Shown in pieces: positions 25,738 through 53,581 of a stretch of DNA of 64,000 bases (within the stretch, counting starts at the first letter, position 1; each line of letters starts with the position of its first letter). The stretch covers positions 2,038,588 through 2,102,587 of the forward strand of contig CM018603.1 in assembly GCA_009192285.1 (NCBI GenBank), written 5' to 3'. The position numbers and the translations under genes are program-made. The notes below the pieces were generated by a model that saw only the letters and a program-made list of their open reading frames with translations, had not been told where the DNA came from and did no database searches. This DNA comes from Morchella semilibera (Eukaryota; Ascomycota; Pezizomycetes; Pezizales; Morchellaceae).

Positions 25738-26045
25738 TGTATTTGTAGCGAGAGCACTCTCTAGTTAGAGTATCGGGTGTTTGCAGTAAGAGGCTCAAAA
25801 TACTGGTAGCCCCACTTGCCAAGACTGTTTCATTCCCACACAAAATTTCAGTCTTCAATCGCTAATTACTCCTGATATAATATATTATCTTATCAAAATC
25901 AACCATAGTGTTATGCGCTGATTCCAGCCCTATCTTTCTATGGTCCCAATTTTTTCTATATGTGTGGGATTGGACTTGAATTACCGGTCGCATCCCCCAT
26001 AGAAACTGGTGTCCCTTATAGTCCGCATCCACCATACAAGTAACT

Positions 26046-26063
26046 TAGCCTCGTGCACAGGCT
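26046..26063. repeat. Left terminal hairpin of the RecQ-DUF6589 element (putative)
   Basis: TAGCCTCGTGCACAGGCT contains AGCCT-N7-AGGCT. It matches the inverted sequence at 53459-53476 at 14 of 18 positions. GTAACTTA overlaps its outer edge. Confidence 0.5.
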
Positions 26064-26080
26064 GTATTATGTAAGATAGA

Positions 26081-26095
26081 TAGGGTTAGGGTTAG
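26081..26095. repeat. Short telomere-like array
   Basis: TAGGGTTAGGGTTAG is two and a half units of the common fungal telomere repeat TTAGGG. It is too short to be a telomere. It lies about 20 bp inside the proposed left end of the composite element. Confidence 0.7.
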
Positions 26096-26217
26096 CCGCA
26101 ACCACACAGCCGCAACCACAGCCACCTTCATCACACATCACCATACAGCCTGGTGAATTTTGCTGGCACCACCCAAGCGCGCACCGTTTTCCCCGCGCCT
26201 ATCATACACGTTCCGTA

Positions 26218-26285
26218 TCCCTAATCTTCACGCTCCCAAATCCTCGCGCCCCAAATCCTCGCGCTCCCAAATCCCCACGCCCCCA
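26218..26285. repeat. 16-bp tandem repeat, about four copies
   Basis: Units of the type CCCAAATCCTCGCGCT repeat with small changes just before the Gypsy B insertion. They are in the left subterminal noncoding part of the composite element. Confidence 0.6.
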
Positions 26286-26331
26286 TAAACCTGTACGTAT
26301 ATCTATTGCCTCGCTGGTGTTTGCGCGCGCA

Positions 26332-26893
26332 TCTAACGGGGCAGGGTCGGACTCAGGAACGAGACGGGGGGGAAGGGGGGAAACTAGGAACAAGAGCAGG
26401 ACGGGGTCGGCTCAGGATATACCCCAAACGAGACAGGTTCGGGTTCAGGTTCGGGTTCGGGTTCGGGTTCGGGTTCGGGTTCGGGTTCGAGTTCGAGTTC
26501 AGGTTCGGGTTCAGGTTCAGGTTCAGGTTCAGAACGAGACGAAGACAGAAGGGCCGAAGCCAAAGTAATATATTGCGAACAGAAAGAAGACGTTGCCTAG
26601 AGAGGCAGAAACATAAGAAAGAACACACTCTATATATACAACTTTCCCATTACACCGCTGACTCATACCATAGAATCCCATAGAACCTCCCCCACTTCCG
26701 TACCACCCATACTAATCCCAATACCCATACTTCTAACCCGATACTACCCCATCCTTCCTAGCGCTTACATTCCATCACCCGAGCTCCTTCCTAATCCATC
26801 CCTTACTTCCGACATCGACCGATGCCATCCAACAACCCTGTTCCGAAGACGCCTTGACGGGAGGCGAGGTGCAGGAGGCGAAGCCGTGATAGT
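26332..26893 (-). repeat. 3' LTR of Gypsy B with hexamer array
   Basis: The LTR contains 26435-26531, an array of GGGTTC/AGGTTC hexamers. Its inner edge overlaps the end of the pol reading frame, which runs into the LTR (stop at 26765). Confidence 0.85.
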
Positions 26894-51710: not shown

Positions 51711-52339
51711 TGTCCCAGCGTCTTGGCATTTGTCCCGACAGTTTGGTAGGAGATGTACGGTTGCGATGGTTAGGGTAATGTTAAGCGAGAGCGGGGAATG
51801 CGAGGTGGAGGCTGTCGTCATTAGGTTCTGGGAGGTTCTATGGCGTGATGGATTGGTAATGTAGAATAGCGGAGATGGTGGGGAGGATTACGGGGTGTGG
51901 TAGTAACGGGTTTCTATAAGGTTCTATGAGCGAAAGTGTGAGTCATAACGGACTAGGGAAGGAGGTGTGTTAAATAGCGGGGATAGATGTTTTTCTTAGT
52001 TCTTTCTTTCTTTTCTCTCTGTCTCGTCTTCCTGTTATCTCGGTACATAGGAATCTACTCCTATCTCTAAAAGCCATAGTAGCTCTCCGTACCAAAGACT
52101 CAGTCCTCTCAAAAGAGGAAATCCATAGTACCTCTCATCGTTCTCGTTGAGGTCCATCTGGTCCTCACTTTCCCTGCCCTGTGTCCCTGCCCTTGCCTTT
52201 GCCTTTGCCGGTGCCTGTGCTTGTGCCTGCTCGGTGTTGCCTTTGTCTTCGTCAGTCTCCTCGTCGCTTTGGCTGTGCTCCTCGGGTCCTTCTGCGTCAT
52301 CATTGTCATCTTCTTCTTTGCGTCGGTTACTCCATCACA
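51711..52339 (+). mobile_element. Solo LTR of Gypsy family A in the DUF6589-like gene
   Basis: 629 bp, TGTCCCAGCG to CCATCACA, flanked by perfect GGGGT duplications (51706-51710 and 52340-52344). The DUF6589 frame rejoins across it. Confidence 0.95.
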
Positions 52340-52946
52340 GGGGTTGGGTTCGCGCGCTGCGTTTGGAGTGTGGTGCGCTATCATTGTATCAACGAGCCCC
52401 TTCACTGTAGGGGCAAAGCGGTGTTGTGCAGCTGCGATATCAAATAATGAAAATTCGCTAATGTATTCATGGGTAAACTGGTTCATCTTTTTGCTCATAT
52501 TTGGTGCAGTTATAAGCGCGCTCATTTCACGGTGCACAAGGTTCCTAAGAATATCCACACATGCATTATTCAGGTCAATATCGCTAGCGAGGATTCTGGG
52601 TTGTGTGAGCGCAGCATATATAAGCTTGCCCATTACACCGCGCTGAAGGCAAGCTTTGGAGCGCGCGAAGGCGGATGGATCTGTGCACTCCAGATCCGCT
52701 AGTAGGCAGTCGGCTATATCATCAAAAGAATACTGGCGTACGAGATCTTGCACCGCAGATAGTCTCTGGGGTAGGGTGAGAGTTGGTAGCTCGTGTGAAG
52801 AAGGGGCTGGTCTGCCGCTGTGGTGGTTATATATAGGTGAGAATGGCCTATAACCACCGCGAGCAGGGTGCGAGCTTTGAAGGGCCGTTCGGCGTGCTGG
52901 GTGCCGGGCGGGCATTTTCTATCGTTCAGTACGGTTTGTAGGCACG

Positions 52947-52957
52947 TTATATATATT
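52947..52957 (-). promoter_or_regulatory. Possible TATA element of the DUF6589-like gene
   Basis: TTATATATATT lies 32-42 bases upstream of the ATG at 52915 on the minus strand. Confidence 0.35.
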
Positions 52958-52998
52958 GCTCGCCACCGGCTAGTACTAATACTCGAGCTCGGCTGCGT

Positions 52999-53305
52999 GG
53001 TGGGTTGGCCGCGGCGGGGCTGCGCAGCGCAGTGGGTTCACCGCGATAGGGTTTGGGTGCGCGGTGCCAGTGGTTTGGCCGCGGCAGAGGGTGCGCAGCG
53101 CAGTGGGTTCACCGCGATAGGGTTTGGGTGCGCGGTGGTTTGGCCGCGGCAGGGGGTGCGCAGCGCAGTGGGTTCACCGCGATAGGGTTTGGGTGCGCGG
53201 TGGTTTGGCCGCGGCAGGGGGTGCGCAGCGCAGTGGGTTCACCGCGATAGGGTTTGGGTGCGCGGTGGTTTGGCCGCCGCAGGGGGTGCGCGGCGCGGTG
53301 GTTAG
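52999..53305. repeat. 65-bp minisatellite, about 4.5 copies
   Basis: Units contain GGTTTGGCCGCGGCAGGG, then GTGCGCAGCGCAGTGGGTTC and ATAGGGTTTGGGTGCGCGG. The first and last copies are diverged. It lies in the right subterminal noncoding part of the composite element, upstream of the DUF6589-like gene. Confidence 0.85.
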
Positions 53306-53458
53306 TGGCGGGCGGATTGGCTTCGCGGTGAACCCGCGGCGCGATTTGAGCGATAATATATGTAATAAGATCAAAATTCACCAGGCTCAGAAGTGGGTAA
53401 AGATTTGATAGCAGATTAGGCTTAGCGCGGAATATTAGCCACACACCACGTGATTCTG

Positions 53459-53476
53459 AGCCTGGGACCGAGGCTA
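53459..53476. repeat. Right terminal hairpin of the RecQ-DUF6589 element (putative)
   Basis: AGCCTGGGACCGAGGCTA, itself AGCCT-N7-AGGCT, inverted relative to the left end. GTAACTTA follows after three bases. Confidence 0.5.
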
Positions 53477-53581
53477 CATGTAACTTAAGTGTGATCAAGC
53501 GTTCACTGCTGACTAAATGCCAGTGCCTCTCTAACAACAACCTCCGAAACCCATCGAGACTGTCTGTCACATACACAAGCT

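Follow-up and report, generated by a model that had tools for sequence, protein, structure and literature searches.

A decayed DNA transposon with RecQ and DUF6589 genes, most likely of the AcademH type, in Morchella semilibera

Genes and insertions at the locus

The window analysed here is a 64,000-nucleotide stretch of contig CM018603.1 of Morchella semilibera (C1:2038588-2102587, numbered as window positions 1-64000), within a genome of 56.76 Mb in 23 contigs. It holds a mobile element with four genes, two on each strand and converging: an AT-hook/coiled-coil gene, a RecQ-family helicase gene, a small gene and a DUF6589 gene. The first-pass annotation, made from the letters alone, had these genes at the positions, in the order and on the strands that we find. 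They stand in the same order in an uninterrupted copy on contig C22, which served as the reference, insertions in the window being read as breaks in its alignment to C22.

On the forward strand, the AT-hook/coiled-coil gene (approximate limits 33492-35764, labelled by eye; its 660-codon main frame is open in C22) is followed by the helicase gene (36060-39138, with an approximate 5′ limit mapped from C22), which is split by insertion 2. In C22, exon 1 of the helicase gene contains AGTGSGKS and exon 2 contains DEAH, SAT and QRIGRAARD, which we take to be the helicase motifs usually named for such sequences. The frame has a Helicase_C match in Pfam and, among known structures, matches RecQ5 (E 2.5e-12), WRN and BLM. 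On the reverse strand lie the 3′ part of the small gene (39216-39595) and its 5′ part (about 46452-46559); the 134 residues first assigned to it become a 160-codon stop-to-stop frame in C22. The DUF6589 gene, also on the reverse strand, is in three pieces: a 5′ part (52340-52915), a middle part with the string SFDNM and the first candidate catalytic D (50992-51711), and a 3′ part encoding the C-terminal half with the GD block (46748-48156).

Alignment to C22 directly reveals five large breaks in the window copy (26331/33334, 37018/37649, 39596/46452, 48156/50992 and 51712/52340), as expected from the insertions that had been proposed, and three lesser breaks near 35740, 46590 and 51120, which are short repeats or indels. 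The insertions comprise two long terminal repeat (LTR) retrotransposons, two solo LTRs and one pogo/Fot1-like element. Insertion 1 (26332-33333, minus strand), foreign to the element, is a Ty3/Gypsy-type LTR retrotransposon with a chromodomain, itself interrupted; it has integrase, rve and Chromo matches and LTR repeats, is missing from the C22 copy, and has an imperfect duplication, GCGCA/GTGCA (by eye). Insertion 3 (39596-46451, minus strand) is an LTR retrotransposon with gag and RVT matches, while insertions 2 (37019-37648) and 5 (51712-52339) are solo LTRs recognised from their LTR repeats and the breaks against C22. Insertion 4 (48157-50991, plus strand), missing from C22, has a DDE_1 match (PF03184, E 2e-16) and lies at TA, an association from which we take it to be pogo/Fot1-like. 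The duplications originally proposed are all readable at the insertion sites: CGTAC at insertion 2, ATGGT at 3, TA at 4 and GGGGT at 5.

The window copy is 96-99% identical to C22 in the aligned blocks. It is dead: the matches of its DUF6589, RecQ and AT-hook genes contain stops. The main frames of the C22 copy are open. Differences between the two DUF6589 genes, summed over the three pieces, number 20, 19 and 19 at the three codon positions, an even spread that fits a dead window copy.

Ends, copies and target sites

The limits of the unit, first put at 26040 and 53487, are in fact 26046 and 53476. An 18-bp terminal inverted repeat, TAGCCTCGTGCACAGGCT, occupies 26046-26063 on the plus strand, and its partner, TAGCCTCGGTCCCAGGCT as read on the minus strand, occupies 53459-53476. 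Outside them lie the left (26037-26045, CAAGTAACT) and right (53477-53485, CATGTAACT) target-site duplications, which differ by one base. The C22 element (C22:1841271-1850800) measures 9,530 bp, compared with the net 9.7 kb or so estimated earlier; it ends in TAGCCTCGTGCCCAGGCT and a near-inverse of it, 16 of the 18 positions being alike, and is flanked on both sides by ACGCGCCCT. The target duplication is therefore 9 bp rather than 8 bp, matching at eight of nine positions in the window and at all nine in C22, as well as in a C11 copy and a 265-bp unit described below. A block of nearly five copies of a 65-bp tandem repeat in the right subterminal region (53000-53301), common to the window, C22 and C20 copies, is possibly a subterminal binding region.

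A search of the genome with DUF6589 gave 13 matches. Besides the window and C22 copies, this family (family 1) includes copies on C2 (with both ends present and the interior rearranged), C3 (the left part) and C20 (the right part), and the last 80 bp of the element occur at one place each on C9 and C10. All genome matches of at least 55% identity to any of the four genes, among the best candidates scored, fall within these copies; weaker RecQ matches of 25-31% identity (C1:254083, C6:1731378 and C2:15320) are probably ordinary helicases. The C22 and C20 copies are 99.97% identical over 3,294 bp, so the element has moved recently.

When the flanks to the left of the C3 copy and to the right of the C2 copy were joined, they matched as one piece, at 98%, at four places in the genome, each with a single GAATGTAAC. 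These places represent the unoccupied target and thus confirm both the ends and the stagger. The target lies inside a repeat, so the C3-left and C2-right parts may come from a single insertion that was broken up or from two separate insertions at one position. The same search of this genome for unoccupied sites of the window, C22, C2-left/C20-right and C11 insertions matched only their own flanks. Further copies and empty sites, proposed at the outset as the way to check for a mobile element, were thus both found. The reading as an autonomous-type mobile element holds, given its several copies, its defined ends, its target duplications and the unoccupied site. It might still be argued that the locus is a fixed host gene cluster that was segmentally duplicated, and a DUF6589 gene at 1.92 Mb on C11 does stand apart among genes that look host-like by eye. 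We consider this extremely improbable and reject it on the inverted-repeat ends with their 9-bp duplications and on the four unoccupied places; short copies whose ends are of the same type also speak against it.

Target duplications are swapped among some copies: C2-left and C20-right share GCATCTATC, and C3-left and C2-right share GAATGTAAC (C2:2737399 and 2752567, C3:2129522 and C20:4678524, with an N at the C3 break). Such swapping points to recombination among copies or to a join made in assembly. Contigs C9 and C10 (2.07 Mb each) show no difference across the 7.95 kb compared (212-220 kb); for some chromosomes, then, two haplotypes may be present in the assembly.

DUF6589 and RecQ genes are also paired in a second family, on C11 (935519-944323) and on C5 (left end at 563372; its right end was looked for and not found), the two copies being 97.5-98.8% alike in shared blocks. 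TAGTCTCGTGCCCA/TGGGAACGAGACTA form the ends of the C11 copy, with GGTTGCACT adjoining on either side. Protein identity to family 1 is 26.6% for DUF6589 and 28.4% for RecQ. The family 2 genes converge as well, and the gene after RecQ is, by eye, AT-hook-like at its start and coiled-coil-like in one part; between the AT-hook genes of the two families no significant likeness was detected (E 0.08), and the 160-codon gene had no significant match in family 2. The strongest indication that the element depends on both genes is that families so distant have kept the DUF6589-RecQ pair.

Much shorter copies share the ends. The sequence TAGNCTCGTGCCCA occurs 126 times in the genome, against 1 for the reversed control and about 1.4 expected from base composition at an assumed GC of 0.47. 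We sampled 20 regions, made up of seven close pairs and twelve singles, drawn from 100 listed places, and one 43-bp unit. A 9-bp duplication with no or one mismatch was present in 11 of the 20 (exact in nine), and duplications of 8 or 10 bp in none; the other nine regions were without a second end or clear duplication. The units measure 43, 60, 63, 66, 71, 77, 80, 107, 111, 112 and 113 bp. In the 71-bp unit and those of 107-113 bp, one end has the left 30 bases of family 2 and the opposite end nearly copies the right end of that family, so these units look like deletion derivatives of family 2; the six remaining units have other inner sequence, and no autonomous source was found for them. A 265-bp unit on C1 has ends of the family 1 type and a perfect 9-bp duplication, GGATCCCTG. 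The shortest copies seen here, with both terminal repeats, are 43-bp units at C1:249953-249995 and C19:2641029-2641071. The C19 unit has a perfect 9-bp duplication and the C1 unit none; such units need not have moved as such and may be in-place deletions of longer copies.

The DUF6589 protein as a candidate transposase

The C22 DUF6589 protein matches PF20231 (E 1e-68), the sole Pfam family found at E<=1; in particular, no hAT or MULE domain was found. A sequence search of PDB gave no match at E<=1. The structure prediction suggested at the outset was obtained and yielded RNase H-like folds. In the 34-row sequence alignment of DUF6589, candidate catalytic residues D319, D487 and E757 (C22 numbering) are conserved in all non-gap rows, so that both features of a DDE transposase, the D-D-E and the RNase H-like fold, are present, the latter in predicted models. 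With VIA-align, both models had Hermes as the best structural match, in one of them followed by P element and Tn5, and the matches were mostly DDE transposases; families missing from these lists are not thereby excluded. Foldseek alone gave no match at E<=0.001 for either model, its top rows being unrelated and mostly membrane proteins.

The earlier proposal that DUF6589 with its GDxxT block belongs to the mobilising machinery is thus upheld, and the protein is best read as a DDE transposase, as the predicted fold and the conserved residues suggest. A different enzyme might instead mobilise the element, DUF6589 being an accessory or regulatory protein. The silence of Foldseek leans that way, as does the fact that the proposed role draws on sequence and predicted models; yet Pfam showed no recombinase or transposase domain in the other three C22 frames scanned, the D, D and E are conserved in every non-gap row, and DDE transposases dominate the VIA-align matches, and we hold a different enzyme to be very improbable.

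DUF6589 is found in many mushroom-forming fungi. A word search of the papers covered returned no mention of DUF6589, and among the matches listed for the end motifs the titles were on unrelated subjects and none had the 14-mer. A separate DUF6589 gene at C11:1923992-1926244 has a 751-codon open frame, neighbours that look host-like by eye, and no RecQ match alongside in the genome search with RecQ. It has asparagine at the position of the GD-block aspartate (AGNLETI). By its sequence, this gene is possibly a domesticated, catalytically dead transposase.

Two other sequences of the window may be mobile as well. A repeat of about 137 bp (CATCAGCAAGACTT...GTTTGCTGATG) has at least six copies (8838, 23817, 29734, 41102, 59696 and 60530), one of which splits an LTR; it is probably another short inverted-repeat element. 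A 488-codon open frame (23867-25333, minus strand) contains the string FDNATSHSAFA, transposase-like by eye, and has no Pfam match at E<=0.01; perhaps it marks another DNA transposon adjoining the RecQ-DUF6589 element.

Relation to known transposons and proposed mechanism

Kolobok elements duplicate TTAA on insertion, hAT elements 8 bp and MULEs about 9 bp; Starship elements carry a tyrosine-recombinase captain. AcademH, of the Academ superfamily, is said to go back to Kojima (2020), and we know of no hAT element with a RecQ helicase.

In published work, AcademH duplicates 9 or 10 bp and AcademX 3 or 4 bp (PMC10045372). PMC3627910 names a 'RecQ Helicase in Academ', and in fungi the copies of Academ have DEAD/RecQ helicase domains and frequently pass for host genes in annotations (PMC6416283). 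AcademH is reported to be low-copy in three fungal phyla (PMC10799480), and putative non-autonomous Academ elements to be widespread in Marasmius oreades (PMC8290104). The M. semilibera element likewise encodes a RecQ-type helicase, has a duplication of the AcademH length and resembles AcademH in being low-copy in a fungus (PMC10045372, PMC10799480). The suggestion of a new kind of transposon is not borne out, RecQ in Academ and AcademH duplications of 9-10 bp having been published already (PMC3627910, PMC6416283, PMC10045372). We read the window element, with good confidence, as a decayed copy of an autonomous-type DNA transposon with terminal inverted repeats, most likely of the AcademH type; its filing in the AcademH family, made against the published description of that family, is somewhat less firm, if still favoured.

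KolobokH is also a fungal DNA transposon with a RecQ helicase, located there downstream of the transposase domain (PMC9587614). In the present element RecQ is on the opposite strand. The duplications also differ, being TTAA in Kolobok and 9 bp of varied sequence here. Closer in predicted structure is hAT: Hermes is the best match of both DUF6589 models, and in the model helices separate the second D from the conserved E, whereas hAT duplications are 8 bp and the protein has no hAT domain by Pfam. MuDR/MULE elements share a duplication of about 9 bp, but no MULE transposase domain was found at E<=1. Starship and the subtelomeric RecQ (TLH) elements are similar as large fungal elements and, in TLH, in having RecQ; however, Pfam detected no captain in any of the four C22 frames scanned, and the element has inverted repeats and 9-bp duplications. 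A subtelomeric RecQ element was rejected, the window copy lying about 2.06 Mb from the start of a contig of 7.34 Mb and the C22 copy at 1.84 Mb on one of 2.47 Mb, away from contig ends.

A rival reading is a DDE transposon outside Academ that forms a separate superfamily, or that branched off from hAT, P or MULE, and that acquired RecQ independently, as in KolobokH. DUF6589 would then be the transposase of a separate, unnamed helicase-bearing superfamily with a hAT/P-like core and 9-bp staggers, moving the 43-113 bp copies. The Hermes, P element and Tn5 matches and the MULE-like duplication length are in its favour, as is the link to Academ being drawn from published description rather than from Academ sequence. 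The 8-bp hAT duplication and the lack of hAT and MULE domains by Pfam argue against it. RecQ is known in KolobokH too (PMC9587614), but RecQ together with a 9-bp duplication is what is published for AcademH and Academ. We regard both the independent origin and the separate superfamily as unlikely, and an AcademH-type element as the better account.

In the mechanism that we propose, the DUF6589 protein would bind the inverted repeats at their TAG(C/T)CTCG ends, cut the element out with its RNase H-like site (D319, D487 and E757) and join it across a 9-bp stagger. RecQ would assist by unwinding the ends or the intermediates of repair or replication. The AT-hook/coiled-coil protein may be a DNA binder or contribute to assembly of the complex. 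Copies of 43-265 bp would most likely have been moved in trans by the same kind of machinery.

The element belongs to a well-supported transposon family, most likely of a known kind. Its inverted repeats, 9-bp duplications, multiple copies and unoccupied target were seen directly, as were the second family and the short copies; what is new is the proposed function of DUF6589. A Pfam family of 'unknown function' gains a testable role as a transposase, under which its members in fungal gene sets should count as genes of transposons or as domesticated versions of them. For functional work the genome offers a copy free of insertions, a non-autonomous one of 265 bp and very short ones that set bounds on the DNA required by the enzyme; the element can also be used to study why certain DDE transposons have a RecQ helicase.
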